This document shows, piece after piece, positions 2,599 to 28,792 of a stretch of DNA of 64,000 bases. The stretch is from NCBI GenBank assembly GCA_001931905.2, contig MSJI02000681.1, forward strand, positions 19,028-83,027, in the 5' to 3' direction. How positions within the stretch are numbered: position 1 is the stretch's first letter; the number at the start of each line of letters is the position of its first letter. The notes beneath the pieces are model-generated. The model was not told the origin of the DNA. It did no database searches and saw only the letters and a list, made by a program, of their open reading frames with translations. Origin of the DNA: Cladosporium sp. IMV 00045. Its lineage: Eukaryota; Ascomycota; Dothideomycetes; Cladosporiales; Cladosporiaceae. The translations under genes and the position numbers were made by a program.

Positions 2599-3943
2599 AT
2601 GCCTTCGAGACTATCCCCATCAGGCTTTAAAGCCCTAGAGGATACCTCCATGTTTCGACCCACCACCATTGGTCGTTTGCAACTCGAGCACAAGGTCGTA
2701 CTTGCTCCTTTGACTCGTATGCGCGCACCTAAAGAGTCGGAAGGCGTTTTCGTTCCTGGAGACCTAAACGTAGAGTACTACTCACAAAGGGCTAGCAAGG
2801 GTGGCTTCATGCTTACTGAGGCTTGCCCCATTAGCAGATTGGTTAGTTTCTTCGAAGTAGCTGATTTGAGCGGGCAAAGACTTACCGATTTTACAGGCTG
2901 CTGGTTATCCCGGTGTTCCTGGCATCTTCACGCAGTCCCAGATCGATGGTTGGAAACGCGTCACGGATGCCGTACATGCTAAAGGCGGTTTTATCTACTG
3001 TCAGCTCTGGCACGTTGGACGTGCTACAACTCCCTCCTTCCTCGGCGGCGAAAACCCCGTCAGTGCCAGTGATATTCCAATCAGCGGCAATGGTCTTGAT
3101 GGCTCTCCCTACGCCCAAACTCCGCCAAAGCCATTGACTGTTGAGCAAATCAAGGAGATGACCGAGGAATATGCCGCTGCATCCAAGCGTGCGCTCCAGG
3201 CTGGCTTCGATGGTGTCGAGATTCACGGGTATGCCTCGCCAGTCCTCCAATGTTCCATTCCATCGCTGACTGATATCGCCAGTGCAAATGGATATCTGCT
3301 TGACCAATTCTTGCACGACAACGTCAACACTCGCACGGACGCATATGGCGGCACCATCGAAGGTCGTGTCCGCTTTCCGCTCGAAGTGGTCAAGTCTGTG
3401 ACCGATGCGATTGGTGCCGACCGTGTTGGCATTCGCCTTTCTCCATACAATTACTTCCAAGACACCCGCGATTCCAAGCCCAACGAGCACTGGGAGTATC
3501 TTTGCGAGCAGATTGTGAGCTTGCCTGAGTCTCAACGCCTGTCATACGTCCACATGATCGAGCCCCGGTTCGACGAGGTGCTCGATGAGCAGCAGAAGCT
3601 GGAGTCGTTGACTGGCAACCCCGATGGTGGCAAATTTGGTGGCAGGCCAAACTCGCTGATTCCGTTCCGTCAAATCCTCTCCAAGGGCAATGTGAAGTTC
3701 CTCAGTGCTGGTGCTTTCGATCGAGACAACGCAGGACCTAAGCTTGAGTCGGGGGATACCGATGCTGTCGTCTTTGGCCGCTGGTTCATCTCCAACCCCG
3801 ATCTGCCCAAACGTCTTGCAGAAGGCCTTCCACTCAACGCTTACGACCGCACCACATTCTACGGTGCTGAGCCTCCTCAGAAAGGCTATACTGACTACCC
3901 CGCCTTTGAGGCTGGCTCTAAGGGCGTTGCTGCATCGGCGTGA
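2599..3943 (+). CDS. hxnT: Old yellow enzyme family NAD(P)H:flavin ene-reductase, HxnT-like
   Basis: Flavin-dependent oxidoreductase of the old yellow enzyme family, expected to bind FMN and reduce C=C bonds. Exons are 2599-2841, 2897-3228 and 3283-3943 (411 aa). Visible signatures are QLWHVGRA (His120 region), HGANGYLLDQF with His191, Asn194 and Tyr196 (the OYE substrate-anchoring and proton-donor positions), NTRTDAYGG, RLSPYN and FGRWFISNPDLP. The start is the ATG in an AATCACAATG context just before MPSRLSP; the reading frame is open further upstream but poorly conserved in character. The second intron is 54 nt without an in-frame stop, so gene callers may leave it in. The gene is first in a catabolic cluster and directly upstream of the C2H2 activator, matching hxnT next to hxnR in Aspergillus nidulans. 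Family call is firm; the nicotinate role rests on context. Confidence 0.85.
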
Positions 3944-4519
3944 AGATTAGCGCGGATATGATGATAGCGTATGTGGAGATATCTGGGGCTCTTGATGATT
4001 AGATAGGAGGTACGCTTTTGAGATGAGACTTCTCCCTATCTTTACGTAATCGGGAAATTGAAATACTTGACATAGCATAAGAATGAGTCTTGCAAAACTA
4101 CGTTGGTCTGATCATGAGCTTCTGATTTGCTATCTGTGCCATACATAACTCGCCCGAGTTGTTTTTGCTGGCGGAAAGATGAGATGCTAGTTGTTGAACA
4201 GCCTCGATGCTCAGCCCCACCATGCCCACTCTTGGCATTTTCGTTCAAGATATGCGCCCTTATCCCTCCTCCTCTTCACCTCCGCCTATCTCGCTGCACA
4301 TGACTGCAGCGGGCAAGTCCAGTCGGCCATGGTCGACATGATACTCGAGCCGGCTGGTGATGCCGTGCTCGAATGGCACCATTACTAAACAAGGTCGGAT
4401 ACTGCAGTGCAAAGAGCAGATCTTATCTCAAGTCATCCCATTTTCCTCTGACTGAAGGCCTGCTCGTGTCATCCCTAATTGATCTGCCCATCTTTGACTT
4501 TCACAATTCTACAGGAAAA
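3944..4519. other. hxnT-hxnR intergenic region
   Basis: 576 bases with no recognisable gene. It should contain the hxnT terminator region and the promoter of the downstream transcription factor. Confidence 0.4.
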
Positions 4520-7411
4520 ATGGCTGGCGGTGCAAGGAAGAAACATTATTGTGAATATCCAAATTGCGGCAAATCGTTTAATCGCTCAGACCACCTTCAA
4601 CGCCATACATTGAATCACGAAGCTGGGGATAGCACCTGCCCACGATGTAGCGCCCACTTCAAACGACAAGATCTTCTAGGTTGGTCTTTCATGTTTTTCC
4701 GCCAAGAGATCCGATGCTGACAATATCTCGAGAGCGACATATGTTGCGCCATCGCCAAAAAGATGAAGAAGCTGGAGGCGAGGGTCTTGGGGTTGTCTGC
4801 ACCCGCAAGCGATTGTGGCGCGATGCTGATGGAAACATCGTCACAAAACGGCCAAGACCTGTCAATCACTCAGATGATTCAACCACGACCCTTGAAGACT
4901 TGCTGTCAGAAGAGAGCGTGGGTGGGCCTGAAGACAGGCGTATGCACCATGCCAGAGATCAACACCAAGTAGTTGAATCGCCACTGTCCCCACCTCCATC
5001 TCTCGCCAGTGCCGAGGCGCGCGTTCAAGATGATTTCTTCGTAGCACCAAATGAATTGCAGGCGGGCTTTGACATGCCTCCACTCATGGATACAGGCGCC
5101 GAAGCCATCGACTTCTTCGTTGACTCGCAATGGCCATCTCAATTCATGGAGCCAATGCCAGCGGATCCTAACACGGCGGCTTTTGACGACGTATTCAATC
5201 CCGATACAGGTATGTGAAAATAATGCGATTCAACCTTTGAGAAAAACTGACCAGAATTCAGCAAGCTCATTCAACATGCCCTTCACGACTATGAGCAATT
5301 ACAATTGGCTATTCGATTTGGATGATGCACAGGTTTCTAATACAAACTTAGACCTGGCGGTACAGCATACACATGGTCCCATGCATGCGATAACAAGACC
5401 GTTTGCACAAGACCAAGCGGGTGGTTTTGCCACTGGAACACTCCTGACGGACAATCCAATTTCTCGCCGAACACCGAATTCATTCGGTATTGCCAGTCCC
5501 CAAAGTCAGCCTGATTTGCTATCAGCACAATCTGCACGTGGTCCACGATACCCCACCCTTGATATGCCTCCCCAAACTAAAGCTTCACCGACCCTTCCGA
5601 GGGAAAGTCAGCAGCCATGTAACCCTCATGTGCTGCCCTCGTCAAGTTCAGACGAGTGGAACTCATTCATGGGCAAATCATCTCAACGTCCGTTGATGCT
5701 TGATGACACGTCTCGCAATCGGGTCCTCGACCTGGTCGTTGACGCTAGGCCACAGACCCCGGAAGGCTTGCCAGTCACTCGCGATCACTCGTTGTTGACA
5801 CTGCAGTCCATGCAGGACTACTGCGACCTCTTCTTCTCTCGGTTCAACAAGAGCTATCCCCTTATACATCGAGCAACATTTGAGCCCCTCCAAGTCGAAC
5901 CATTATTACTATTGTCCATTCTACTTCTTGGAGCTACCTACGGAGACAAAGATGATCACCGCCTTGCTGTCTGCATACATGATATCATGCGAACGCAGGT
6001 TATCCAACACGAATCCTTTACAGCAACGCCGGAGATCTGGATGCTTCAGGTCATCTTGCTTATAGAATGCTTCGGAAAGTCGAGGGCTGGACAGAAGCAG
6101 CATGACATGTCCCATCTATTTCATGGGATGCTCATAAAGTAGGTCCATATATATCATGGTTGTGCTTACATACTGACGAGAACAAGTTTGATTCGACGAA
6201 GCGACTGTCAAACCGCTAAGCTCCCAGAGTACTTCAACGAGTCTGTAGACCTCGATACTCGATGGCGCTTAGCCATGGACGTTGAACAGAAGAAGCGCCT
6301 CGCACTATTGTGTTTTCTGTGGGACACGCAGCATGCTGTCTTGTTCTCCCAGTCGCTCTGCATGTCGGCTTTTGAACTTCGGACCAATCTGCCTTGCAAT
6401 TCAGACGCTTGGGATTCAAAGTCTGCCGCAGAATGGGCTGAATGTACTAGTAGGAGCTCGGAGACTAGCTTTCTCTCCGTCCTCAAGCTTTACATGAATC
6501 CAAACCAAGCGGGGATACCGCCAAAACTGAATGCACTATCGCGACTTTTGATCCTACACGGGCTGATGTCCGTGTTCTGGGATATGAAAAGAAGAGACCA
6601 GACCTCACTTGGTGAGTATGACAGCGAAGCGTGCTCATATCTGACGGGCCTGCTGACTGTTAGTGCCACAGGCTCGGTAGGTCCAAACACAGAGTGGAAA
6701 CCCCGGCTCGGGCAAGCTTATGATGCCTGGAAAACGGATTTCGACGCATATTGCATGAACATGACAATGCATTTGAAAGAAACGCCGATCAAGGGTGAAT
6801 TTACACGATTCAGCACCAGCACCCTTGCTATCTACCACGCCGCTCACATCGTCCTCAATGTCGAGGTGCTCGACTTACAAATTTACGCGGGCGCCCGCCA
6901 CATTATTGGTAGACCAGTCAGCCCGCATGACTACGATCGATCCAGGTTCATCGTAAAGCAGTGGGTGGGGGATGACTCTAAAGCAGCAGAAACCGCTGCT
7001 TGGCATGCCGCTCAACTCCTTCGAGACGGAGTCATGAACCTCGAAGGCTGGGATGTAGATCAGCAGTTTCACTACCCTTGGTGCCTATACATTGCAACGC
7101 TGACATGCTGGGCTTTTCACCATGCAAAGAACGACCAGACAACAACAGGTATCCCAAGCCGGATCGCGGTCGAAAGCCGAGAGGAGAATTTCAACGAACA
7201 AGCGAGCATGAATGCTCTCATCAGCAGCATGACCACCGTCGGCCCGGAAGGCTTAGGTCGCATTGCAGGGAAACAGTCAACTCGCGGCCTGGTCAACGTT
7301 GTGGCTAAGCACCTTGGCAATATACGGTGGGCGGTGGTTTATGAAGGCATGAAAGTTCTGAAAGGTTTGGAGCCAGAAAAAGCTGGCGCTAGATACGATT
7401 ACATGAGATAG
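4520..7411 (+). CDS. hxnR: C2H2 zinc-finger plus fungal-specific transcription factor, HxnR-like pathway activator
   Basis: Predicted DNA-binding activator of the cluster. Exons: 4520-4679, 4733-5209, 5262-6138, 6187-6611 and 6672-7411, total 892 aa. Two C2H2 fingers open the protein: Cys11-Cys16-His29-His33 and Cys40-Cys43-His56-His60; intron 1 falls inside the second finger. After a low-complexity linker, the fungal-specific transcription factor domain (PF04082 type) starts near residue 392 with LQSMQDYCDLFF and LIHRATFEP. The last intron (6612-6671, 60 nt, gtgagt...ctgac...cacag) has no in-frame stop and is easily missed. The combination of two N-terminal C2H2 fingers with this domain is the architecture described for HxnR, the nicotinate-pathway activator of A. 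nidulans, and the gene sits between the hxnT and hxnX homologues. It converges on the next gene, 190 bases away. Confidence 0.85.
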
Positions 7412-7602
7412 TCCGAGAAATAACATGATTCACGACCTTCTAATAATGATACTTCTGGAGCAAGCTGCCTGTAAAGCTGTACCGCTTACTTTTTAACGTG
7501 ATCGGCCGATGGCCTCACTCGAGACGAGAGTGGTGGATGACCCATCAACGATCAGGGCCGTGCTTGATTCATCTATGTATGTTCAGAGGCCTAACCTGTT
7601 AC

Positions 7603-9240
7603 TCAAAGCTTGCCTTGGATTTGCGAGGGGCTGTCCACTCTGTTTTCAATATCGATCTCTTCCCCATCCCATTGCCAGCACCGATCAACGTCTTCCTCAA
7701 CTTTGTAACCCAGCAGCTGCGGAGAGAGCCCAGAGTCTCGCCAGGCAAGGGCCTCACCAGGCTCCATTGCCTTCATCGCTCTGTCTCGTTCTTCTTGCTC
7801 TGGCCCATCGTGCAGATGATATAGCCATTGCTGCAGATTACCACGCTCCACCACCATCTCTGTCCGCGGCTTCCGACATTTCCCGTAGATCGCGAGCAGG
7901 CGACGTTTCTCGCTAGGCTCGCGAGGGTTCTCACTGCGACCAAACAACTCTCCCAAAACCGCGGCATCTTCGAGAGCCATGCCGGCACTAGGTCAACCTT
8001 AGCAGAATGTTCAAGTAACTATAAGATGTACATCTCCCTTACCCTGATGCAAGATATGGTAGTGTTGCATGCACAGCGTCACCAAGCAATGTGAAAGCAC
8101 CAGATGGATGACTCCATTGGTCCAGGCTTGAGCGAATGCAAAGACGCCATTTGTGGACAGACTCACACAACGCAAGGAGCTTAGGAATGCGAGGGTCTTC
8201 TACACAGTTAGTGACGATTCGGGCAGAAGTATTCTGTAGACTTACCCCAGTCTCTGTAGAGAGCACGCATTTCATCAACGTTCCCTGCAAGCGTATTCGT
8301 GCCTTCGGGCATGTCATCTGGGACGAGCAGGACCATGTTGAAAAGCTCACCACCTCTCAGAACATAGTTGACTGAATTGAAATTGTCAGTCTTGCTAGTG
8401 CAATGGCAAAAGCTCTTTGCTTACCGGCATGTGCATCGGGTCCAAGCCAGTAGTTGACCTGAGGATTCGTAACGAACTCTGCCAGCTCAGGATCTTTAAG
8501 CATCTCTTTGGTTGACAAGAGGAGTCGGTACGCAAGATCTCCAGTAAGGATAGGAGGGTCGACATGGCCGACCATGATCTCTCGAAGACGGCTGTTGATA
8601 CCGTCGGCGCCAACAAGAAGGCCGGTCACGTATTGCTCTCCATTCTCCAGAGTCACAGTGGTGAATTCGTCATTAGGAGAGACCTCAACATGCGTGACCC
8701 TAGCGTTGGTCTTGATCGAAGCCCCAAGTTCCACGGCACGATCTAAAAGGCACCGGTGAAGATTGGCTCTGTGGAAGTCCCAATAGAAGGTATCCGGATA
8801 CTGCGCGGCCGATTCCTGAAAGTCCATATGGGAAATGACCTCGCCCTTCCAGTGTAACATGTTTACACGGGAGGGCTTTGTTGAGTACTTATCCAGAGCT
8901 TTCTTCATGCCCCAGGACTGGAGGACTCGACTGCTGTTAGGGAGGATCTGGATGCCAGCACCGATTTCGCCAATTGCAGATGCCGACTCGAAGATTTGTA
9001 CATCGTGTCCGGCGAGAGTCAATGAAATAGCAGCACCAATGCCACCAAGACCAGCCCCTACGACGATGATCTGTAGAAGTCAGTACTATTGCTCTTCGCG
9101 GGGATATCCTTGTGATGATCAAGCAATCCCTTGGACTTCCACTGCATTGCAAAGGTAGCTGGAGAGTAAATGGCAAAACATACGCTGAGCTTTGTGTCAT
9201 CGCTGCGCTGCTGTTTGCTCTTGATAGGAATGGAGGACAT
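7603..9240 (-). CDS. hxnX: FAD-dependent aromatic monooxygenase (salicylate/6-hydroxynicotinate hydroxylase type), HxnX-like
   Basis: Single-component flavoprotein hydroxylase, expected to hydroxylate an aromatic ring with NAD(P)H and O2. Exons (minus strand): 9240-9184, 9070-8425, 8371-8246, 8199-8043, 7987-7603; 456 aa, which is normal for the family. The FAD-binding GAGLGG motif is at residues 24-29, followed by the DG motif in GADGINSRLRE and the GD motif GDAVHATLPYLASG ahead of GMALEDAAVLGELF. The first exon codes for only 19 residues, and its 113-nt intron is the longest in the gene. In A. nidulans the homologous cluster member HxnX acts on hydroxylated nicotinate; in this window the gene lies between the activator and the cyclic-imide hydrolase on the same strand as hxnM and hxnN. 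A salicylate hydroxylase role cannot be excluded from sequence alone. Confidence 0.85.
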
Positions 9241-9951
9241 TGCTGCATCGATGAGCCCAATCAAGATTGTTCAATGGTCAATCGGCTAAGAATCGTCCTG
9301 CCGAGTTACAGAACGATAGAATTATCAAGAGAAGACGTTTAATGGCGGCCTTCAAGTTCAAGCCTCATCATCGTGTGGTGCATATACATAACTGTTTGGT
9401 AGCTACAGCCTGTCATTCTGATGGCTGTTCCAGCAAAGCAGTGGGGGTCGCCCATCCCTGCGGTCGAGACTGTGTCCACTACGTCTTCATTCTCGTTCCA
9501 AGGTAGATACCGGAAGTCATGCGGGCAGAAACAATCTAGCTTTGCCCGTGGTCACTAGAATGCAGATACCCTGCGTTATCAGGAAACGATAAAAGGAATG
9601 CATTAGTGCATCCTTCTCCGGATAGTTGCGCAAATCTGCAGAGTGCGGAACTTTCAAAGTGGACAAGAGTGGGGGAATGTCAGCTGAACATGATTACCTC
9701 CTATAGACCTGCTAGCCAAAGGGAAAAGGGTCCAACTGCTAGAGAACGAGTGGAGACACGAAGGCATCATGGAGCTTGTCACGGAGGTTCAAAGCATCAA
9801 TAGATGATTGTGATGCTTCTACGCAAGGGCTTCATCTTTATGTGTCTCATTTCAGGTAGACATATTGATCAAAAACGCGTGGAATCTGGCGTGCGAGTGC
9901 GAGTGCGAGTGCGAGTATTTGTTTGTTCATTCATGGAATAAGTAACCCTAT
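9241..9951. other. hxnX upstream / hxnM downstream spacer
   Basis: No gene is visible. It contains the hxnX promoter side and, near the hxnM end, a short hexanucleotide microsatellite. Confidence 0.4.
9891..9916. repeat. (GTGCGA)n microsatellite
   Basis: About 4.3 tandem copies of the hexamer gtgcga, ending 35 bases from the stop codon of the deacetylase-type gene, in its 3' flank. Confidence 0.9.
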
Positions 9952-10988
9952 CTACTTCTTCATTGCGGGCATCATTGCACCGGGAGGCGGGGCGTTCTTC
10001 GACTTGAACTCGTCTGCCATCTGCTCCATAGTCATCCATTCAACACCCTCGTGCTTATTAATATACTCGATGAGTCTGTCTTTCATCAGCATTCACGTAC
10101 GGATCAAATGTCTGCCTCCCACCTTACCTTTCGTGCATCATGAGAACGTGAGGTCTTCCGGAGACATCTGGATGACAAGTGATCGGAAAGATGCAGATCT
10201 TGCTTGGGTCAGGGTCATCTGCCAGTTCGCGGTAATAGTAGTCAAAGTGATCTCTCCAGATGTCTTCAACATCTCGAGGATTGACCCAGCCGTGGCTATT
10301 GGCGTTGCCCTTAATGAACATCATAGGAGGAAGATCGTCGATGTACCAACTGCCGGGGATTTCGACCATGCCGGTCTCTTTACCTCTGACTAGAGGCTTC
10401 ATCCACTCCTCGGCTTTCTTGGAGTAATCGATTTTCGTCCATTGATCCCCGGTACGCAGCCAGTACATGTTCGCGTCATGATGAGACATGGAGTGGTCGT
10501 ACTCGATACCGTAGGTCAGCATCAACTCAACACCTTCCTGACTTGTTTCCCACCACGGAGCAACACTACCTCGAGGAGGCTTTCCGCAGAAGTCAGTAAG
10601 CAGCTTGTGGGTTTTGTCAAGAACGTCGCGCTGTTGCTCTAGAGTCATGTCCGAAGGGTTTTCGTGAGAGTATCCTATCAGACAAATTCAGCAAGGTAGT
10701 GGCAAGATATGCAAGCTCGTGTTACTCACCATGAAGTCCAATCTCATGACCGGCATCTCGAACCATGGCGCACTCCACAGGAAAAGTCTCAAGCGTGTGA
10801 CCGGGAATAAACCATGTTGCCTTGATATTGTATTTCTCGAACAACTTCAACATGCGTCTAGTACCGGTCTCTCCCGCCCATAAACCGCGAGAGATATCGT
10901 TTGCAGAGTCCTCGCCACCATAAGAGCCAAGCCATCCCGACACGGCGTCGATGTCAACGCCGTAGGAACAGATGATTCGCTTCGGCAT
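9952..10988 (-). CDS. hxnM: Polysaccharide-deacetylase-fold cyclic imide hydrolase, HxnM-like
   Basis: Carbohydrate-esterase-4/NodB-fold metal hydrolase of the PuuE/HpPgdA subgroup; the A. nidulans cluster homologue HxnM is a cyclic imidase that opens the oxidised pyridine-derived ring. Exons (minus strand): 10988-10730, 10674-10128, 10075-9952; 309 aa. The N-terminal [10 protein letters not shown] segment carries the metal-binding Asp region, and HEIGLHGYSHENP carries the His-x3-His zinc motif, which is split by intron 1. Further conserved parts are [17 protein letters not shown] and [12 protein letters not shown]. Secretion or chitin binding is not indicated, since there is no signal peptide, so an intracellular small-molecule substrate fits better than chitin. 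It lies between hxnX and the amidase, as expected if ring opening and deamidation are successive steps. Confidence 0.85.
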
Positions 10989-11527
10989 ACTGTCGGCTTA
11001 GGTTGTAGCTGAAAGATCGTGGACAAAGCGTTTTCGTTTGGATCCGAGACGGTTGGTTAGCTTTCAATTTTGTTGATCGGTTGTGGCTCACTGTGAAGCA
11101 CCTTTGTACTGTGGTGCAGGTGGATCATAAGGGACCATTTCTGGAGTGGGGTGCGTACGGCAACATCGACGTAGACTCTCAAGAGGTAAGCGACATCAGC
11201 AGCAGTGGGCTCTCGGCGAAATGTTGTTCGATACGAACGCACTTGTTATCGGTCATTCCCAATACGCTTAGTCCCATTCAATGCTATCGAATCGATATTC
11301 TAGGAGGATCGAATGACAGAAAGCCGAGAAACAGTCTGATTAATATCCAGTGTTTCCCATGAAGGGCCCAAACGGCTTACATTAAACGACAGAAGTCGAC
11401 CAAGGAGACATTTGCGCTTCAAATAGGCGTGGGCTGTACTAATGGTGCTTTTCCAATACATCTGATATTCATCAGCTCAAGCCTAGCGCAATTGAAGCCA
11501 GAAGGAAAGGTTCATGAGCTTTATAGT
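10989..11527. other. hxnM upstream region
   Basis: 539 bases without a recognisable gene. It separates the hxnM start from the hxnN stop codon and should hold the hxnM promoter. Confidence 0.4.
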
Positions 11528-14130: not shown

Positions 14131-15770
14131 TTAGATGGCAGAATGCCCGGCCGTCTCAAAGGGCAACCCAAAAGCCGTGAGCCCGACCATGATCCACATG
14201 GCAGCACTGACATAGATAGGAACAACCGAGAAGCCAGTGTATGTGCCGATTAAAGAAGCTACAAGCGAGCCCACGCGAAGATTGGTTGCAGCCTGACCAG
14301 TACCCAAGCCACGGTGCGGTCCTGGGAATGACTCGGGGGTGATGGCAAACATGATGGCGTACATGAAGTTTGCCAGCAGCATACTAATGCAATTGAATGC
14401 CAGGTCCATGGATTGGGATGCCGCTGCAGTGTAGCCGTAGAGGAAGGCGCCGGTGATGATCGCTGAGCCCCCCATGCACCAGCGACGACCCAGCTTGGTT
14501 CTGACTAACATTGAAGCTGATATCGGGCCAATGACGCCAACAGCAGATACAATGCAGTAGTTACGGTAGGTTATGTCGAAAGAGTTGGACGGGAACCTCT
14601 GTGCCAGATAAGTAGGTAAGAAGTTGAAGAATAGTGGGTAGGCGATACCGATTGCCAACCAGATGAACCACAAGATCGCAGTCTGTTGTCCGAGTTTCCT
14701 CGTCTGGAAAAGAGATGCGTAGTTCATCGGCTTGAAGTCTCGGAAGTTGTCCTTGAGAATCTGAGTCTTAGACAGCTTGATTGTCTGACCTTCTTCGATG
14801 GAGACAACGACACCCAACTGAGCATCCACCTCCTGCAACATAGTAAGACTCAATGGTTCAGGCATCCGATTTGCACGAGCGACGAAATTGACGGCATCCA
14901 CGGCTTCTGCGTCCCGTCCCTTTGCCAGTAAGAAACGGGGAGACTCTGGCATTTTGAAGATGAAGATCCGGATAGCTGAAAATATGAGGGCGATAACTCC
15001 GAGGGTGATCATAGTATACCGCCAGCCCATATTATCGGCCTTACGGCAAACTCCGGCCTCCTCATTGCAGCTGAATTTAGCCAGAAACACCCAGGCGACG
15101 AGCGAAACGATAAGCTGTCCGAGATTCCACCAAGCCGACAAAGCTGTGACCAGATACTGATGAGAGCCCGGCACGAACTCCAGGAATATCATGGAGTCGA
15201 CAGGAACGTTACCGCCGGCGGCAGTACCGATGATCGACCACATGAAACAGAATCCGCCAAAGTCATCGAAGCCCGCCACTGCTGTAGCAAAAACAGCGCC
15301 GATGGTGATTGTTGCATAGAACGCCAGTTTCCGACCAGTGAAGTCGCAGGACATTCCCCAGAACGAGGCACCGAAGATCATTCCAGCATAGTATGCGATG
15401 GAGCTGACAGTAACTCGATCAACATCGGTGAACTCTAGGGCGACGGCCGGCTGAATAGAGCCAATGGCTTGAGACCAACTGCGTAAAGTCGTTAATTCTG
15501 CGTTTCTCTTGAAGCCTCTTATGGTACTCACAAGTTGTCTGCGACCCAGCCGAAGCCTGTGATGAGGAAAAGTACCCATTGGTATCGACCCATACCAATT
15601 TCATTCATGCACCCTGCCACAATCTCTGACTTCATACGGTACGACCGCGAAATAGAATCGCCGTAAAAATCGATGTTTTGTTGGTTTTCAACCGGATCGA
15701 CAATTCCGACTCCATGATCAGAGTTTGCCTCAACACCGAGGTCGTGCTTCTCTGCATGAGAATCCATCAT
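14131..15770 (-). CDS. hxnZ: MFS transporter, sugar-porter/SV2-like type, HxnZ-like candidate
   Basis: Twelve-span major facilitator, 528 aa, from exons 15770-15532 and 15478-14131. The start is the first of two adjacent ATG codons (MMDSHAEK). Recognisable features are GFGWVADNFW in the first span, DFTGRKLAF in the loop 2-3 position (G-x-x-x-D/G-R type), PESPRFLL after span 6, and a long central loop. The PESPRFLL plus SV2-like pattern resembles NiaP-type organic-acid carriers, so nicotinate or a hydroxylated nicotinate is a plausible substrate. The A. nidulans hxn clusters contain two MFS genes, hxnZ and hxnP; assignment of this one to hxnZ rather than hxnP is my inference from subfamily and is less certain than the family call. 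Confidence 0.72.
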
Positions 15771-18652: not shown

Positions 18653-19302
18653 GATGAATGATCAATTCTCAAAGAGTCGCAAATCCAAATGCGAATGTAG
18701 TCTCAATTCGAAATGGCGCAGAAGCAAGCCTTTGAGTATCCAATACAAAAACAATCCAGGCGACGCGACACACATGTCCATCTTGCCACCGATGCGTCTC
18801 TCTGATGTTCAACATTCGGTCCACTACTCAGCCTCCTCACTAGTCCCCCACTTTCGATTGCTGCCAGGCCGCGGCGTGAAATGGCCGTAACAATCCTAGA
18901 CCTTGCAGATTAGAAAGTGATGGCACAGAGCCCTTATCATGCTGCAACCAGATGCCCCCCATCGCCAAGGCCCCTATCAAATGCGGAGTGAACAGTGCAT
19001 GCCCTAACCCCATCAACGCTGCGGGGGAAAGTATCACGGGTGGAGTATGTTTACAGGTTATTGTTTCCCGTGAAGGATTGTGATTCAGCAGTATGACACA
19101 TCCACAGGACACGACAGAGAAACTAAGGATTGGTAGCTTCAAATTTTCGTTCCGCAAAAGAGAACCGTGGATGTAGAGACTCATGGCAGTGGAAGACTTA
19201 GTAAGATAGTAATTTGGGTTCATGATATTGTCTACATCGGCTATATTCTTGAATCGTTCGTGCAGCGAAAGTGAAAGAGCTAATCAAACCGACGAAATAT
19301 CA
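18653..19302. other. Spacer between Rieske gene and hxnV
   Basis: 650 bases without a supported gene. It holds the hxnV promoter. An open minus-strand stretch at 18840-19223 has no recognisable domain. Confidence 0.4.
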
Positions 19303-20626
19303 TTACCAAGCAAGCTCGGGTCGAACACTCGTGCAATTCTCGACCTGAGAACAAAAATCCTCATCTCTATCTCCGTCTGATGGCGCTGCTGGCCTAGCGG
19401 GCCAGATCTGCATCTTCGCTTGCTGCTCCTTCTGCCAGTGTTCCGACAATGCCTCTCGCACTCGTTGTTGGAAAAAGATAGGTCCCTCAAGAAATGTCAG
19501 CATGGTCTATGGGATCAACAATGCAAGATGTCCGTACCCTCTCCTTATTTGGATGAAGTTGACCGGAACTGAAGACACCAGTACTCATGTTACGCTGCGA
19601 GCCTTCGCACAAGTCCTTGTCCTCATCCAGGACCTGCTTGTAAAATTTGCAGATGTTGGAGAACTCCTCGTCGGGGGCGTCTTTGTGTCGGTAAACTTCG
19701 TTCTCAATTTTGCTTGCTGTTGGTCCCGTGGGAACCATGCGTTGAATATAAAAGAAATTGTCCCTGTTTGACAGAGTCAGTGGTGCGCCGATGTAAGCAG
19801 CAATGAAAGTGCCAACTTACGTGCACGTCACAGACGTGGTTGGGTAACAGAATGTAATCGCTCGCCTGAACTGCCCATCACTAGATGCCTTGTTAAATAT
19901 ATAGTGTCGCATTTGGGAACCGGAAGGCTCAACATTGTACTTTTCGAGATCAGAGACGCCAGCAATGAGTGGGTGGGAGGTAGCACAATGGTAGCATTCA
20001 TTGTAATTGTCAATCAATGCTTTCCAGTTGGCTTTGCAATCCATTTCCCAGTAGTGGTCGAACTTGAACTCTTCCTCGAACTTGAACTGAGTCATCATAT
20101 CCTCGTTAACACCCTCACTGTTCTTCTCGAAGCTGACATCGGGCTTTCCAGCTGTCAAATTCGCCCAAATGAAGCCGATCTTGTCCACATGGACGTTGAT
20201 CGGGAGCAAGCCTTGTGTAGATTTGTCAAAACCCTCTACCGTGTCAAACCGAGGAGCTTTGGCAAGCGTTCCGTTTAGACCATAGCTCCAGCCATGATAT
20301 TTGCAGCTCAGAATATTGGCAGTGCCAGATTGTTCTTGCACCACGGGAAATGCTCTGTGGCGGCAGACATTATGGAAACCATTGATGTTGCCTGCACGGT
20401 CTTTGACCAAAAAGAAAGAGTAGCCGGCTATGTTGAATTGTTGGTAGTCTCCAGTCTTTGAGATGCGAAGAGTGTGTGTGAGAAGCATCCAGTCACGGGA
20501 GAAGATTGCCCGGCGTTCAAGCTCATAGATGCCTTCAGAGCCGTACCACGAGGCAGGCAAGTTTTTCGGGATGCTCTTCTTGGCCGAGGCGTCCGTGTCT
20601 TGACGGAAAAGAATGTTCCACAGCAT
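19303..20626 (-). CDS. Rieske [2Fe-2S] non-heme iron oxygenase, alpha-subunit/choline-monooxygenase type
   Basis: Terminal oxygenase of the aromatic-ring-hydroxylating/choline monooxygenase class, 404 aa from exons 20626-19821, 19763-19538 and 19485-19303. The Rieske cluster ligands are Cys88-x-His90 and Cys108-x2-His111 (CRHRAFP and CKYHGWSYG). The catalytic domain shows [12 protein letters not shown] with His213 and His218 as mononuclear iron ligands and Glu210 where ring dioxygenases usually have the bridging Asp; a Glu there is known from carnitine-monooxygenase-type enzymes. No ferredoxin or reductase gene lies nearby, so it would borrow electrons. It sits inside the hxn-like cluster in the same orientation as its neighbours, between hxnV and hxnW. 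I do not know a Rieske member of the A. nidulans hxn regulon. Substrate is unknown; hydroxylation or N-demethylation of a pyridine compound is speculative. Confidence 0.85.
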
Positions 20627-21205
20627 TTTCCGTTTTGTGTGACTTTGATGTGAATGGAATTAGGTCTGAATCTGATTGTTCCCAAGCGAAGGCTGTGTTT
20701 GTAGCATTAAGCATGTATTCTTACTCTTGCTCTCGGCCTTGACCTTGAGATACTAATACCGTCAAGAGTGGGGGACCTCTAGTGAGTTACCGTCACAGCC
20801 GGATAGGCCCAACGATAGCACATGGCTCCAGCCCCAGACTACTTGACCCCACCTACTGCTTATAGGTACATCAGTCAGGTGCAGGCATCATGAGCGCCTC
20901 TTATGTCCATGTCATGCGTGGGACTTGGTGCAATCACATCAGGGTTGAGTAATGCAAAAGGCGCGGTTCGACTGGGATTTCGAAGGCCCGTGCTCAATAG
21001 TGATTCCAGAGCGACCGTGGGGTCTGCTTCACGATTGTGGCGTTTTCATGTTATTGTCTGTCATGAGTATTCTTATATGGCGTGCTATTTGCAAAGCTGT
21101 CGCAAGTCACGTGAATTGATACTCCCCTGTCTACAACCCGAACATTGCCCGCTCCGCCCAACCAAATTACTACAGCCAAGTCGGTCTTATCAACAACCCT
21201 TCTTA
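20627..21205. other. Spacer between hxnW and Rieske gene
   Basis: 579 bases, no gene recognised; promoter side of the Rieske oxygenase gene. Confidence 0.4.
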
Positions 21206-22141
21206 TCACCACTTCGTAACACCCTATCGGCCATACGCGTTAGCAGGGAACTGGCATCAACTGATCTATGGCGAAACTTACTCCATCAACAAGCACATCT
21301 TCGCCAGTCATGTACCTGCTCGCTTCCGAGGCGAGGAAAATGCAGGCACCTCGAATGTCGTCCGGCTCAGCCACGCGATTAAGCATGATTTGGCCCTTCC
21401 AACTGTCAAGGAGATGAGGGAAAGGCGCTGTGAAACATCAGTACAACTGCTAAAATCCACGCATCTACTGTATCTGCATACCGGTCATTTCGGTGCGCAC
21501 GTATCCTGGAGACACGCTGTTCACTCTGATGTTGTACTGCGCAAGCTCGACCGCTATGGGGGGCACCATGGACTTGACCGCGCCTTTGGTACCGCAGTAA
21601 GCACTGGACATCTGGCCTTGTACGGCCCTAAAAGCCGCGATCGAAGCGACCATAATAATTGATCCGCACGTCGTCTTGTTCGCAATCATGGCTTTAGCCG
21701 CAAGCTGAGCAGTGAAAAAGACGCCTTTCACATTCACCTGATTGAGCTTGTCAAAAGCCGCCTCATCAGTCTCGATGAAAGCCACGTTTCGATTTGTTCC
21801 AGCGCATGCAACGCAAATGTCCAGAGAACCATTGGTTTCCTTGAGAAAGGCTGTGAAAGCTGCTTCCAGGCTTGCCGGTGAGCTCACATCCGCTTTGAAG
21901 AACCAGATCTTCACTTTGTATTCGGAGCTGATGCTGTGAATTCTGGAGAAGGTTCGATGATGTCCAAGACGACAACATCTGCACCTCCTTCCGCCAGGCC
22001 TTGCGCGAAAGAGAGACCACAGCCTCGCGCACCACCTGTCACGACGGCAGTGCGACCTCGTAGCGAAAACTGCAGCTTAGGTCAGCCTAAGCATTCAGCG
22101 AGTCTCAGGAATCAATGCGTGAATCAAACCCTTTCCGACAT
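21206..22141 (-). CDS. hxnW: Short-chain dehydrogenase/reductase, HxnW-like, carrying a one-base frameshift
   Basis: NAD(P)-dependent SDR. Exons (minus strand): 22141-22130 (12 nt, MSER), 22069-21482, 21427-21282 and 21223-21206 (18 nt, GVTKW). The cofactor motif is VVTGGARGCG, the second beta strand VVVLDI, the NAG-type motif VACAGTNR, the catalytic Tyr-Lys in SSAYCGTKGAVKS, and the C-terminal SPGYVRTEMT. All four exons together are 764 nt, one short of a multiple of three. The frame breaks at about 21937, between gaattc and acagc: adding one base there would join IEPSPEF to SSEYKVKIWFF and give 254 aa, the usual SDR length. As written the gene cannot make a full product, so it is a recent pseudogene or a sequencing error. 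Context matches hxnW. Confidence 0.78.
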
Positions 22142-22614
22142 TATGATGCTATGCGCTTAGCCAGTTGCGATGAGCTTGAGCGGTCTCTGGGCGGTCTTTC
22201 TGGATTACATAAAGCGATCCGTGACCAAAGGGATGCGCCATAATTGTACACCCTTTTCTCTAAAGGAAGTACCCCACTCTCCTAGAGTGGACGCATCGCA
22301 CGGGGCCCTTACGAGCCCATGTTCTGACCCGTGCCAGGTCTAGTGGCACAATATCAAGACCATTCAGTGGACAGTGGCGTTCGCAGCAGATCCGTTTCCC
22401 GCCGAGATCATAAGGCCAACTTTGATGGTAATGAACTGTCACTGACCAGGTGATTTATACGTGATTTCGGACAAGTCTGCAAACACTATACCATCCTTGA
22501 CCATCATGACATTGGCCCGCGGCTTACTCTCGGCGCCACGTCTTGTCTACGTCTTGATCCTCTAATCTACTTCACTTAGTCGACTCGCTTCCGTTCCAAT
22601 GAGTGGCAGCCATC
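22142..22614. other. Spacer between the TNA1-type transporter and hxnW
   Basis: 473 bases, no gene recognised; hxnW promoter side. Confidence 0.4.
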
Positions 22615-24241
22615 TCAAACGAAATATCGCCAATCAGGAGAGTTCTCACCGTCCTGTAGCAGACTTGTATCGACCTCGCTGGCTTTGAGCACCCTGCCCT
22701 GATCTTGGTTTCTTCGGCTGTTTTCCCGTCGCATCCAAAGGCTCATCCCAAGAACGCCAATGATGGAAACGCCGTTGCACAGTGCCGTTGCGGCGAGTGT
22801 AGGCCAATATGAAGGCGCGTACTCAACCCGGAATGTTGCACCGGAGATAATGCCTGCAAGGTTGCCCAAGCCCACCAAGAAGCCAGTCCTAGCTGCACGA
22901 CTGGACTCATCTAAGTCGTTATTATTGTGCCTTATCTTGTCAGTATGGACAACGTCGTTCAGCTTCGACAAAACTCACCAAGAGTGGACAAGCACTGAAG
23001 GGACGTAAGCTCCTGATGCCATAAGGAAGCAGGCGAAATAAGCCACGCCTTTGTTTTCCAGTGCATCTATGCTTGCAAGCACCACCATACCAATCAATGA
23101 GACTGTCAGTGCGCCAATAATGTGGAAGCCTCGCTCTCGAAAGTAGTCGGAAGACTTCGCGAAGCAGAGTAGCACAACGAAGCCCACACAATTTGGCGCG
23201 ACAGTCCACAGATTGGTTTTGACCACAGAGTAACCCAGGCGCTGAACGATTTGCGGCAGAAAGTTGGACTAGAAGGTGGTCAGCAGAATAAAATAGCCGC
23301 ACAAAACGAAGCGAACATACAGTCGTAGCAAATGCGACTGGGTAAGTGAAGCAAATGATAGCCCAGTGCAGGAAATGCCAACTCTTCCAACTGTCAAAGG
23401 CATCTCTCATGGTCAGCTTCTTGTCGATGGTGTTAGATCCGTCCCGAAGCGTGCGTGCTCGTGCGGCAGCCTTCTCTCTGTCGTTTAGAAACCATGCGGT
23501 GTCGGGCTGCGCAGGTAACCAGAAATAGGCCACCGCTCCTGTGACTACGGTCGCTGCTCCTTCGATGAGAAATAGCCATTGCCATCCATAAATATCTGGA
23601 TGGTCGATCTGGAAAACTCCGAAACTGATGAGACCACTAAAAGCGGCGGCAAGAAGGGCACTGCCGAAGAAGATTGCAAGCCTAAAGCTAAGCTCACCGC
23701 GCGTGTAGAACAAGGTAAGATAGAAGACGACACCGCAGTAGAAGCCAGCCTCGAACGCTGCAAGGAGGAGTCGTAGCGGTAACATGCCTGCAAAGCTTGT
23801 GGCTGCAGCCTGAATGGTAGCCATCGATCCCCAGCCGACGATTAGCACAGGGAGCATGATCTTTGCTGAAAAACGCTTCGTCAAAAGCGTCAACGGCAAG
23901 TCCATCACGCCGAACGGCACGTAGAAAAGAAGAATGATTAGCGAGTATTGATTACCAGTAAAGTTCATATCCTCGTCCATGCCGTCAGTCTTCGCATTTC
24001 CAATGTTAGACTATACTCTGGTCAGCAAATTGCCATCGAATCACAGATGACGGGAGTGGTGTCGTACACGGTCCACAGCGCTGAAGAAGTAACACAGCGA
24101 GAGAAATGGCAACAAACAGAAATCGAGCTTCTTGACATAAGAGCGCTCCGCCTCCTTGTCGATGGCCAGCAACACGCTGCCCTCGCCAAGCTCTGCTGTC
24201 CCAGCGACCACTTTGTCCTGCGTGCTGTCTTTTCGATCCAT
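22615..24241 (-). CDS. hxnP: MFS anion:cation symporter (TNA1/DAL5-like), HxnP-like candidate
   Basis: Major facilitator of the ACS family that includes the yeast nicotinate permease TNA1 and allantoate permease DAL5. Exons (minus strand): 24241-24068, 24010-23321, 23268-22979 and 22930-22615; 489 aa. The signature stretch is KKLDFCLLPFLSLCYFF followed by AVDRSNIGNAK, typical for this family, then GNQYSL and a WQWLFLIEG segment after span 6. The gene starts 635 bases from, and divergent to, the 2-oxoglutarate dioxygenase gene, so the two may share one control region. Import of nicotinate or a ring-hydroxylated derivative is the likely role given the cluster. No frame problem is seen. Confidence 0.78.
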
Positions 24242-24875
24242 GGCAATGACTATGGGGTTTAAACCGCATCGATTTGGTTCAATAGTTCCTCAATAGACAA
24301 AACGAACAGCACGAAGCAATATGGAACGGGAGGAACTACTGTTTGAGGGGTCGGCAGAGATGGTTTTATCTATCTTTCTCTATCACACTCTTGGAACAAT
24401 GGAAGAACTGCTCAAATCAATGCTTGCGTGGCGAAGGTCATTGTTTTTGGCCCTGCAATACATTGATTACGAGTAGTGGGGGTTGATAACATTCGATATT
24501 GTATGTTGTGAGCTGCTCTCACGGGTCTCATGCGAGTAAGAAACCATGGTGGGCGTATGTAATACCTTGTGCCACCTGCATGGAGCATGATAACGATAGC
24601 CCGATAGCAGTGACAGGGTTTGGCCGTACATCCGCCTCGATGCATGAATATTCGGGCTCACGGGCGCCGAATGCGTCCGATGCAATGCTGCCCCACTCCT
24701 CCACTCTTGTGTCTGGGGGGTTGAGGAGCCATACTACATATTGTCGCGGACTTCTATGTCCAAGGCGATGAAGAAGCAAAGAATTAAACATCTTGACATT
24801 ACGATCAAGTAGCTTCTAAATAACAGCAAGAGACGTACTATCTTCCTTCAACCCATATCAAACTCACATCTCACC
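24242..24875. promoter_or_regulatory. Divergent promoter region hxnP/hxnY
   Basis: 635 bases between two divergently transcribed cluster genes. HGATAR motifs, the consensus of AreA-type GATA nitrogen regulators, are clustered: TGATAA at 24588-24593, CGATAG at 24594-24599, CGATAG at 24602-24607, and on the opposite strand overlapping AGATAA and AGATAG at 24366-24375. Nitrogen-source control by AreA is known for nicotinate use in A. nidulans. The binding site of HxnR itself is not known to me, so I do not mark one. Confidence 0.45.
24588..24607. promoter_or_regulatory. Triple GATA (HGATAR) cluster
   Basis: Three HGATAR hexamers in 20 bases, in the divergent hxnP/hxnY promoter, about 270-290 bases upstream of the hxnY ATG and 350 from the hxnP ATG. 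Single GATA sites are common by chance; this density is not. Confidence 0.45.
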
Positions 24876-26193
24876 ATGGCACCCAAAGCTCAAGCACCAC
24901 CAATCCTCGACTTTTCAGGTAGGCTCAGCAAACATCATCATGGACAAATTCGTGCTAACAACCTTTAAAAGTATTTTATGGCGGCGATCAGGCCGCGAAG
25001 GCCAAGCTTGTCGATGATGTCAGAAAATGCTGTCTACACAACGGTCAGCAGTACCACGCAATAAACTCCAACTTCTCGCTAACCGGTCATGCGTAGGATT
25101 TTTTCAGATCGTTGGCCACAACGTATCCAGAGATCTCCAAGAAGACGTTCTTGATTGCCTGAAGTCATTCTTTGCCCTGCCTCAAGCCGAAAAGGAAAGG
25201 GTTCACAAGGGCAAGTCTGACATTGAGGCTGTGACAACGTGCGATAAACACTAACCTGTGTCTAGACAACACGACATGGAACCGTGGATATGAGAATCTT
25301 GGAAGCCAGATCTTGGAAGCCGGCACAAATCCCGATCAGAAGGAAGGCTTCTACGTTGGCGAGGAGATCACCAAGGACCACCCCTACTTCGTGGGCAAAA
25401 AGTTGAACTCCGGGCCAAACCAGTGGCCACAAGACTTTCCACATGCTGAGAAATTCCGTACTGCCTCCATGAGCTACTACCACGAGATGCATAAGCTCGC
25501 GAGAGACGTCTTGTCTGTGATTGCAGAGACCTTGGACCTTGGAGCCGACTACTTCAATACTTTCACAGATGGTGCGGTCGCTACGCTCCGCTACCTTCAC
25601 TACCCACCTCAGTCCCCCGATTCTGATGAGAAACTCTCGCGCGGAATCGGAAGCCACCGAGACTTCGGATCTGTGACACTGCTCATGCAGGATGAGGTCG
25701 ATGGTTTGCAGGTGTGGGAGCGGTCCACTGAAGAGTGGCTCGATGTAAGTTCCGACTCTCACGCAACCACCTACAAACACACACTAACAGTAGCTAGGTC
25801 GTTCCGGTCAAAGGAGCTTATGTTGTCAACCTCGGCAATATGTTCATGAGGTGGTATGTAAAGCTCCTAGCATCATGTCAACAACCTTCTAACGTGATCA
25901 GGTCCAACGACAAGTACATCAGCAACACCCACAGGGTCATCAATAAGAGCGGCAAGGAGCGCTACTCTGTACCGTTCTTCTACAGTGGAAACCCTGACTA
26001 CGAGATCCATTGCCTTCCGAACTGCCGCGAGGAGGGTACTGCTCCCAAGTACCCTCCCATTACCGTCATGGACTGTGTTGGTGGCGCATACCGGGAGTCG
26101 TACGGCAAAGCAACGGCGTTCAACAAGGCGACCGGCGGAGCGAAGCCCGCTATTGCCCAGCCTGCGGTCCAACAGCAGCCTATTGCAGCTTGA
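24876..26193 (+). CDS. hxnY: 2-oxoglutarate/Fe(II)-dependent dioxygenase, HxnY-like
   Basis: Non-heme iron oxygenase of the isopenicillin-N-synthase/thymine-dioxygenase-like group. Exons: 24876-24918, 24972-25043, 25097-25210, 25266-25744, 25798-25853 and 25902-26193; 351 aa. The iron triad is His207-x-Asp209 (GSHRDFGS) with distal His265 (SNTHRV), and Arg275-x-Ser277 binds 2-oxoglutarate. The N-terminal DIOX_N-type region contains GFFQIVGH. The third intron (25211-25265) begins gcaagt and ends tag: it is a GC-AG intron, the only solution that joins VHK to DNTTWNRGY. The gene is divergent from the hxnP-like transporter. In A. nidulans the cluster member HxnY is this type of enzyme; its exact step in this organism is inferred. 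Confidence 0.88.
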
Positions 26194-26586
26194 TTGCAGG
26201 CCAGTGAAGGGTTGTATTAGTCTCGAAGCCTTTGTTTGGGCACGCAATTCGATTGAATCCTCATATATCACGGAGAAACGAAATGTCTGCATTGGTCTGA
26301 ACCAATCTAAATCAATCTCTTGGAAGCCCTTCATCGCTTTACAGTCGACCGGAACCGTGTGCAGCACTACACTATGCAACCATTCTCGAGAACAAAAGAA
26401 TTCGAACACATTCACCAAGCACACTCTGACTATCTACACATCATGCCTCTTCCAGCGAGGTTTTCCGGATGCCAACAAGCGCTTAATCACGATGCTAGCC
26501 AGATTCCAAATTGTCAAGGCCAACAAGACCTGCATGTATTTGCTTCAAGAATGTACACGGCGACTGTATGTCCTGGATCATTTGAG
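26194..26586. other. Convergent spacer hxnY / FMN oxidase
   Basis: 393 bases between two convergent stop codons; shared 3' region, no gene seen. Confidence 0.4.
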
Positions 26587-27866
26587 TTACAAGCGAGCAA
26601 TTCCGAAACCATTCTTCTTCTGCAACCCAAGGAACCTCCTGTCGATGCTATCAATGTCCGGCGTACCAGCCAATGCCATGGTCCTTGACAACTCCCGCTC
26701 CAGAATGTAAGCCACAAGCTCAACGCCCTTTTGACCATCGTAACTCATTCCCAAGAGAACAGGTCGCCCGACCATAACGAGACCTGCCCCGAGAGCGAGT
26801 GCCTTGAATACATCACTGCCTTGCCTTACGCCTCCATCGAAAAGGATCGGGATCTTTCCTTTCACAGAATTGGCAATCGACGGAAGAGCTTCAAGCGTCG
26901 ACGGCGATGAGTCCAATTGCCTTCCTCCATGATTAGATACAACGATGGCATCAGCACCATGTTTTACAGCAAGCTGGGCATCCTCTTCCGTCATCACGCC
27001 CTTGAGGATGGTTTTCATGGAAGTCACGCTTCGCAACCAACTGATCGTGTGTGCCCAAGTCAACGATGAGCTGTGGATGGCACCGTTCGCTTCACGCACG
27101 ACATTAGCAGCCTCGGTGGCCGTCTGAGCACCAAGCAGCTGTCGCTTCTGGCTTGGCTTGTAAGAGTCGATACTCGTCTTCTTCGAACCTTTATAATTCG
27201 CTAAATGAAGATGCGAAGGGAGCACAAGTGGTGTCTTCCTCTCATTGATACGATTGCCAAGGATCGGTGTGTCGACGGTTACCACGATAGCCGTATACCC
27301 GGCGTCTGATCGTATGTCAGAACGATCTCATCCAGACACATTGTCAAAAAGCTTACTCGCCGCCCTCTCAATGAGTGGTACACTCAAAGCCGGATTTTCC
27401 GTCATGTACAGCTGGAACCACCTTTCCGGCCCATTCGGGGTTATTGGCATTAGGTCAGCAATATCTTCGAGTGATGTCGTCGCTTGTGAAGACAATGTCA
27501 TATTGATGCCTATCTCGTGGGCGGCCAACGCAACACTCTCCTCTCCTCGAGGATGAGCGAGCTTCTGCATGGCGCTTGGGTCGAAAGCAATCGGGAAAAG
27601 ATATTTGACTCCAAACAGGCGCGTGCTAGTATCAATGTGAGATACATCAACCATCATCCGTGGTCTGATGAGTAGCCTCGCGTCATCGTAAGCAATTAGA
27701 TTCATAGCCTTTGCAGTTAAACTTACCGATCATAGACGCTTCGATTGCGTCGCAGGCATGTTTCATCGTCCGAACCGCAAGCATAGTAGTCGTACACATT
27801 CTCCGGTAGCTTCTTTTGGGCGATTGCTTGTAACTCATCGACTGTGATCGGATTTGACGACTTCAT
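26587..27866 (-). CDS. FMN-dependent alpha-hydroxyacid oxidase/dehydrogenase (lactate/glycolate oxidase family)
   Basis: TIM-barrel flavoenzyme oxidising alpha-hydroxyacids to 2-oxoacids. Exons (minus strand): 27866-27727, 27676-27357 and 27305-26587; 392 aa. Conserved parts are YYACGSDDETCLRRN near the N-terminus, LLIRPRMMVDVS, WFQLYM with the active-site Tyr, AGYTAIVVTVDTPILGNR, the catalytic His and Arg in VSNHGGRQLD, and DGGVRQGSDVFKALALGA for FMN phosphate binding. There is no cytochrome b2 domain and no clear targeting peptide. It ends convergent with hxnY. I do not know it as a member of the A. nidulans hxn regulon. Because the pathway is thought to end in a hydroxylated dicarboxylate, this enzyme could oxidise that product to 2-oxoglutarate; this is inference. 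Confidence 0.85.
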
Positions 27867-28399
27867 ATTCGTGACAGGCGGCTAGGTGAGGTGATTGCTA
27901 TTGGTAGATCGGTATCAATGCTTTGAATGCAGCAATTATTCAGGACGGTATCATACATTCGGTGCTGCTACCCATCTCGTCCACTGTTTGACCCAATTCT
28001 CCAGCATGGTACTTGACATTGATCGATAAGCGAATACCTATCCCCACTTCTGATGTTTATCTCCCCACTCTCCACCCGGCACTCTTGATATGTCCAACAA
28101 GTATTGCGAGACCATTTTACATGCTCGGTCAAGAACATTGGGGACTGAATCGACGTAGAAAAGATAACACATTGCCTTTCAGCGGAAGAACCGTAGATAG
28201 GTTCAATATATCGTCCTGTCAAATCAAGACAATTCAAGCAGTCCGCAACCACCCGACTTACCCAACGCAATTGAAACACCGATCAGCTCAAGCCGTCGCT
28301 ATATAGCCACTCTGCTTCGGACAAAAAGTTCAACAGTGAGCGGTCCCGCCAAAAGGCCATGTCGTTCTAAATGATCTCAAGGGCTAATGCAACTAGAAA
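27867..28399. other. Divergent spacer FMN oxidase / SnoaL-like gene
   Basis: 533 bases. It is the shared promoter region of two divergently oriented genes. No additional gene is visible. Confidence 0.4.
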
Positions 28400-28792
28400 G
28401 TGGCCGACCAAGCCCAAATCACCGAGCTCCTCCACAACTATGGCAAAGCGCTCGCATCTCGATCTCTTCCCGATGTCTTGAACATCTATACGCAAGACGG
28501 TGTTATCATGGCACCCGGATACCTTCCATCTGTCGGCGAAGAATCACTTAAGGCATCATACGAACGAATCTTCGCTACCATCAAGTTGGAGATAGACTTC
28601 ACCATCGACGAAATTGTTGTCATGGACGATCAATGGGCATTCGCCAGGACCACTGCAGAGGGCAGAAAGTACTGGTTGCAGAAGGGAACGGTTGAGAGAC
28701 ATCACAATCAGGAAATTTTCATCTGCCAGAAGGTCAAGGGGGAGTGGAAGATTGCAAGATACATCTTCTCGAGTATGAAGCCAATAGTCTGA
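28400..28792 (+). CDS. SnoaL/NTF2-like fold protein (ketosteroid-isomerase homologue), start codon unclear
   Basis: About 130 residues with the SnoaL/YybH-type pattern: ITELLHNYGKAL, then ALASRSLPDVLNIYT, DGVIMAPGYLPSVG, and a C-terminal WKIARYIFSS. Such proteins are small isomerases, cyclases or unknown accessory proteins. The homologous-looking N-terminus begins at a GTG (GTG GCC GAC CAA) and no in-frame upstream ATG exists before a stop; no convincing upstream exon was found. Either the ATG has mutated to GTG, or an upstream exon is hidden, or translation begins at the internal Met at 28508. It borders the catabolic cluster, divergent from the FMN oxidase. Confidence 0.6.
   Translation: MADQAQITELLHNYGKALASRSLPDVLNIYTQDGVIMAPGYLPSVGEESLKASYERIFATIKLEIDFTIDEIVVMDDQWAFARTTAEGRKYWLQKGTVERHHNQEIFICQKVKGEWKIARYIFSSMKPIV

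Follow-up and report, generated by a model that had tools for sequence, protein, structure and literature searches.

A probable single-block hxn-type nicotinate catabolism cluster with an inserted Rieske oxygenase gene in Cladosporium sp. IMV 00045

We conclude that a block of about 23.5 kb (positions 2650-26193) in a stretch of the Cladosporium sp. IMV 00045 genome is, judged by its predicted proteins, almost certainly an hxn-type nicotinate catabolism cluster. The stretch, called the window here, comprises 64,000 nucleotides (nt) of contig MSJI02000681.1 (positions 19,028 to 83,027; assembly GCA_001931905.2), and coordinates below are positions within it. The block holds ten hxn gene types and one gene for a Rieske non-haem iron oxygenase. 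Single-block hxn clusters are a published kind; the Rieske oxygenase is the variant feature of this one, and from its sequence and genomic neighbors it looks like an unrecognised recurrent member of hxn clusters. We consider it likely that the whole represents a single-block cluster controlled by the activator HxnR, with the Rieske enzyme as a candidate for an entry step and a flavin mononucleotide (FMN)-dependent oxidase at its possible edge. The block itself adds one further species to those known for the published pathway.

Gene content and identity of the block

Gene models were spliced by hand from three-frame translations. Clean spliced frames were obtained for 9 of the 11 genes, including the regulator, and the introns (46 to 113 nt) follow GT-AG throughout, except for one GC donor in hxnY. 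With strands, the order is T+ R+ X- M- N- Z- V- Rieske- W- P- Y+, followed by the FMN-dependent oxidase gene (-). The block thus contains 10 of the 11 hxn gene types of Aspergillus nidulans: besides the regulator, the X, V, T, W, M, N, P, Z, and Y types are all present, with V and W interrupted. The features are as follows.

2650..3943, + strand: hxnT-type old yellow enzyme (ene-reductase), 394 amino acids (aa), 3 exons; PF00724, E value 3.4e-80
4520..7411, + strand: hxnR-type activator, 892 aa, 5 exons; C2H2 fingers and Fungal_trans
7603..9240, - strand: hxnX-type 6-hydroxynicotinate monooxygenase, 456 aa, 5 exons; PF01494
9952..10988, - strand: hxnM-type cyclic imide hydrolase, NodB fold, 309 aa, 3 exons; PF01522
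11528..13389, - strand: hxnN-type amidase, 532 aa, 6 exons; PF01425, E value 1.3e-98
14131..15770, - strand: hxnZ-type major facilitator superfamily (MFS) transporter, 528 aa, 2 exons; PF07690 and PF00083
16556..18652, - strand: hxnV-type phenol-hydroxylase-like monooxygenase; PF01494 in the first part, PF07976 in the second; frame shift in the last exon at about 17150
19303..20626, - strand: Rieske non-haem iron oxygenase, 404 aa, 3 exons; PF00355 and PF00848; intact, between hxnV and hxnW
21206..22141, - strand: hxnW-type short-chain dehydrogenase; PF00106 in the first piece (just below the cut-off), PF13561/PF00106 in the second; frame shift in exon 2 at about 21940
22615..24241, - strand: hxnP-type MFS transporter, 489 aa, 4 exons; PF07690, E value 7e-30
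24242..24875, no strand: shared divergent promoter of hxnP and hxnY, 634 bp; 8 AreA-type HGATAR sites
24876..26193, + strand: hxnY-type 2-oxoglutarate dioxygenase, 351 aa, 6 exons; PF14226 and PF03171

An earlier sequence-only reading of this DNA had named ten hxn gene types here, and the spliced models and Pfam matches confirm all of them between 2650 and 26193. It had also described the ten genes as adjacent, and the Rieske gene between hxnV and hxnW had been overlooked. Also unremarked were the lack of hxnS from the block, the frame shifts in hxnV and hxnW, and the oxidase-type gene at the edge (26587-27866), whose product ends in ARL.

Several lines of evidence support the assignment to nicotinate catabolism made in that reading. 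The Pfam domains of the block proteins agree with the hxn domain table as given in PMC8478523. HxnR, with a C2H2 finger at residues 9 to 33 (PF00096), a second at 39 to 60 (PF13894, below the cut-off), and PF04082 at 401 to 667, matches a protein deposited as "Nicotinate catabolism cluster-specific transcription factor" (P0264; 53% identity over 59% of the query). Across its N-terminal 429 aa, HxnV shares 68% identity with a Cyphellophora europaea protein (P0123), and HxnT shares 63% with the T portion of an Aureobasidium melanogenum gene model in which T and R are fused (P0359). HxnM matches HpPgdA (3qbu) with 416.6 bits over residues 1 to 296 of 309; this is the family published for A. nidulans HxnM, according to the available text of PMC8478523. 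In a hand-read alignment, His233 and Tyr237 of HxnX correspond to His211 and Tyr215 of NicC, the two residues by which NicC binds 6-hydroxynicotinate; a 23-residue tag offset was inferred for the chain, and the four-residue spacing agrees.

Flavin hydroxylases, old yellow enzymes, and amidases are large families, and the block could in principle handle another aromatic compound and merely resemble an hxn cluster. The closest solved relative of HxnX is indeed a 4-hydroxybenzoate decarboxylase (8gsm, 361 bits), with NicC lower (154 bits), which weighs against our interpretation. However, HxnR, M, N, T, V, and W together with the P/Y couple match the published set jointly, and HxnX keeps the substrate residues of NicC. 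We therefore regard a different aromatic substrate as very improbable.

Of the divergent couples, P-Y is present, M-W and N-V are not adjacent, and no S-T couple was seen in the window. The 8 HGATAR sites of the hxnP/hxnY promoter were equalled in 0 of 200 shuffles, whereas its 3 GHGGGG sites were equalled in 9 of 200 and 6 of 200 shuffles (two runs). HxnR and the N-terminal part of HxnV were the two among the ten hxn-type proteins queried against a large protein collection, and their matches (two lists, best 120 each) lie on contigs of identical size in the case of 28 contigs longer than 5 kb. The C terminus of HxnX is GKL (7603-7620), which is not a canonical peroxisomal targeting signal 1 (PTS1); conservation of the HxnX PTS1 across Pezizomycotina is stated in the available text of PMC9304392. 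Scans for tRNAs and Rfam families gave no match.

The Rieske oxygenase as a putative cluster member

The protein encoded between hxnV and hxnW has the Rieske CxH/CxxH ligands and the two-histidine site (C88, H90, C108, H111, H213, and H218), each found in 119 or 120 of 120 homologues. The bridging glutamate and cysteine pair of CntA (E205, C206, and C209) correspond to E210, C211, and C214, conserved in 120/120, and the clade Va aromatic residue (CntA Y203) corresponds to Y208, which is tyrosine in 113, phenylalanine in 6, and serine in 1 of the 120. By its residues, the protein carries the group V (quaternary-ammonium) signature, and it shares its ligands, the bridging glutamate, the Cys-X-X-Cys beside the iron, and the tyrosine at 203 (clade Va) with CntA, Stc2, and choline monooxygenase, as these are described in the available text of PMC7948474 and PMC10952381. 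Unlike the characterised group V enzymes, it is eukaryotic and lies inside a pyridine catabolic cluster, and its Teratosphaeria relative is only 22 to 26% identical to solved group V chains. Bacterial relatives (the best 80 of 530 were 29 to 38% identical) were set aside as too distant.

Two gene models from other fungi join a Rieske protein of this kind to an hxn protein: in Oleoguttula sp. CCFEE 5521 (P0001) the Rieske protein precedes HxnV, the order seen in the window, and in A. melanogenum (P0025) it precedes HxnW. A broader comparison took the best 120 matches of the Rieske and HxnR searches and used identical contig size as a proxy for linkage, a proxy weaker than adjacency for megabase contigs. 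By this measure, the Rieske gene and hxnR are co-located in 6 of the 18 species matched in both searches, namely, Teratosphaeria nubilosa (171 kb), Myriangium duriaei, Venturia effusa, Neoarthrinium moseri (locus tags 009988 and 009993), and two Xylariales. The probability of six such co-locations by chance is roughly 1e-5 to 0.011, assuming genomes of 25 to 50 Mb and 12 to 20 species. The genera with a linked Rieske gene presumably belong to Dothideomycetes and Xylariales.

Other observations do not point to membership. Contig sizes differ in the remaining 12 of the 18 species; among these, linkage seems to be absent in Kalmusia, Pleomassaria, Neocucurbitaria VM-36, and Thozetella, and some other cases may reflect different assemblies (Aureobasidium, Venturia, Truncatella, and Paecilomyces). 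Within V. effusa, the locus tags lie far apart (R, 000609; V, 000650; Rieske, 000705). A 62-row tree, drawn from the 120 listed Rieske matches plus the window protein, placed 9/9 linked rows in one 48-row group (100/100), and 5 of the 6 rows labelled unlinked fell there as well. Because this group holds both, the tree does not separate linked from unlinked proteins; the linked label was not clustered on it (359 of 500 shuffles were as low).

The unlinked species are consistent with a Rieske enzyme of choline, carnitine, or betaine metabolism, either a bystander or one that has no more than nitrogen regulation in common with the hxn genes. Carnitine, choline, betaine, and stachydrine are the substrates of those relatives whose function is known, and the best NCBIfam model for the window protein is glycine betaine monooxygenase, although at 138.6 bits the score is far below the threshold of 670. 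Against this stand the linkage across several genera and the two independent fused models, each with a different hxn gene. We consider a bystander role somewhat unlikely, and the Rieske gene is probably a functional member of the cluster. Listings from searches of the open-access literature, which take in few subscription journals and of which most papers were left unread, mention no fungal Rieske gene of this kind; one drawn in a supplementary figure of PMC8478523 would have been missed.

The genome contains three more Rieske genes (C877:109151-110394, C941:86849-88164, and C443:16872-17997), which are 49 to 54% identical in their best segments. In N. moseri, a gene model joins a related Rieske protein (P0076) to a cupin-type protein that lies upstream of it.

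The missing hxnS and the proposed pathway

No hxnS was found in a search of the genome assembly (49.87 Mb, 954 contigs), in which the 19 kb directly left of the window lay outside the sequence searched. The window itself shows no hxnS coding at positions 1 to 2600, where a single stop-to-stop frame is 110 aa or longer; according to the available text of PMC8478523, hxnS is mostly divergently coupled with hxnT. The one xanthine-dehydrogenase-type gene found in the searched genome (on C841) looks mostly HxA-like, since it agrees with HxA at two of three sites diagnostic for HxnS versus HxA (His954 and Ala1081-Ser1082) and has Met at the third (417), which fits neither well; this numbering takes the aligned rat chain numbers as equal to bovine. 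In 40 of 139 species screened, hxnR occurs without hxnS (PMC5746545), and published clusters without hxnS are still classed as hxn in the available text of PMC8478523 and PMC5746545.

The block most likely works from 6-hydroxynicotinate down, without a detectable hxnS. For A. nidulans, the available text of PMC9304392 describes HxnX as converting 6-hydroxynicotinate to 2,5-dihydroxypyridine, which HxnV hydroxylates; HxnT (with a further, unidentified enzyme) and HxnW then carry out ring saturation and oxidation, HxnM opens the ring, and HxnN releases ammonia, leaving alpha-hydroxyglutarate as the end of the pathway. HxnP and HxnZ are the substrate carriers in the same account.

Upstream of these steps, the group V-type Rieske oxygenase may supply the pathway by oxidising an N-methylated pyridinium carboxylate. 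Trigonelline, a compound common in plants, would be an example, and we tentatively propose a substrate of this type, while rating the odds as short of even. With similar reserve, we suggest that the Rieske oxygenase could be a twelfth hxn gene of Pezizomycotina, of ancient origin and so far unrecognised, acting as the entry enzyme for N-methylated nicotinate or as a stand-in for HxnS where that has been lost. An entry step of this kind would explain use of the pathway by fungi that have no HxnS and would provide a candidate gene for trigonelline breakdown. Were the twelfth-gene proposal true, the block, with the FMN oxidase at its edge, would run from an N-methylpyridinium compound to 2-oxoglutarate.

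Another possibility is that the Rieske oxygenase replaces HxnS outright, hydroxylating nicotinate (or N-methylnicotinate) at ring C6 as the entry for fungi without hxnS. Ring hydroxylation is an established reaction of Rieske enzymes, this gene turns up repeatedly near hxn genes, and no hxnS was found in the genome searched. However, the residue signature is that of enzymes for quaternary ammonium compounds, which nicotinate is not, and the 19 kb left of the window could hold hxnS. We consider outright replacement decidedly unlikely and prefer entry by way of an N-methylated compound.

Interrupted genes and possible decay

Both hxnV and hxnW are broken by one frame shift within a conserved exon, and relatives are uninterrupted at both places. 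The two pieces of HxnV align to residues 1 to 428 and 426 to 621 of the C. europaea protein, and those of HxnW align to residues 378 to 425 and 424 to 627 of the A. melanogenum fusion protein, with about 62% identity on either side of the break. An intron is an unlikely cause, since the pieces align without a gap and nothing is missing between them. The breaks could be either assembly errors or true decay.

If they are real, the cluster might be a decaying relic that has lost hxnS and in which hxnV and hxnW are inactivated. The position of the breaks in conserved exons and the failure to find hxnS in the genome searched favor this. On the other side, 9 of the 11 genes, including the regulator, retain clean frames with introns of 46 to 113 nt, and two single breaks are compatible with assembly errors too. 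Assembly of this genome is difficult because contigs occur in near-alike pairs: the four pairs tested (L001/L002, L003/L004, L005/L006, and L012/L013) are 83 to 94% alike, as in a hybrid or diploid. On balance, a relic seems unlikely to us. No second copy of the region was found in the genome with hxnT DNA, GlnRS DNA, a 4.3-kb gene, and the HxnR protein as probes; the GlnRS probe had two additional matches, each spanning 146 bases at 70%, and the HxnR probe weakly matched other factors, none of which were counted as copies.

Comparison with published hxn clusters

The sequence-only reading had pointed to the contiguity of the genes as the matter of interest, since in A. nidulans they are spread over separate loci; three clusters are described there in PMC5746545, PMC8478523, and PMC9304392. 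The contiguity is real but not new, since blocks in C. europaea and Monascus ruber have been published. The block shares its ten protein types and the divergent hxnP/hxnY couple with the A. nidulans regulon, which in addition has hxnS. An hxn cluster of eleven genes has also been drawn across Ascomycota in PMC7842363.

According to the available text of PMC8478523, C. europaea has one 11-gene block, which led to the extended hxn gene set; Hymenoscyphus repandus has all 11 genes in another arrangement; and M. ruber has a 10-gene block without hxnS. The window resembles C. europaea in having hxnZ, Y, P, R, T, X, M, W, V, and N in a single block. It differs in that hxnS was not found, the M-W and N-V couples that are divergent in C. 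europaea are not adjacent, and the Rieske gene is inserted. In being clustered without hxnS, the window is instead like M. ruber and the pfdB-type clusters of Penicillium, Talaromyces, and Aspergillus section Flavi, which the same text describes. The pfdB gene, which encodes FMN_dh and cytochrome b5 domains, lies between Z and M in those clusters, whereas in the window the FMN_dh gene lacks cytochrome b5 and sits beyond Y, and V and W flank the Rieske gene.

The FMN-dependent oxidase gene and the right flank

The gene abutting the block on the right is intact.

26587..27866, - strand: FMN-dependent (S)-2-hydroxyacid oxidase-type gene, 392 aa, 3 exons; PF01070, E value 5.6e-121

Its product resembles the peroxisomal (S)-2-hydroxy-acid oxidases (glycolate oxidase and hydroxyacid oxidase 1), with FMN_dh over nearly the full length and a C-terminal ARL that we take to be PTS1-like. 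In a PDB search, the top two rows were tandem L-lactate oxidase chains, whose scores add up four stretches. Among matches in a single stretch, peroxisomal (S)-2-hydroxy-acid oxidase and glycolate oxidase scored best, at about 304 bits, and residues 8 to 379 align to the former (1gox) with 304 bits. Identification of the gene as pfdB was rejected, as it lacks a cytochrome b5 domain.

Because the A. nidulans pathway reportedly ends in alpha-hydroxyglutarate, such an oxidase would be a fitting next enzyme, and at the cluster edge it may convert this product to 2-oxoglutarate. A point against this is that the FMN_dh family has many members in the genome (37 matches). We keep the gene as a tentative lead only, a possible edge of the cluster. 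To the right of it lie a SnoaL-like frame (28401-28792; PF12680/PF13577) and a two-exon gene (29018-29926) with matches to seed maturation protein (SMP; PF04927), here in a fungus.
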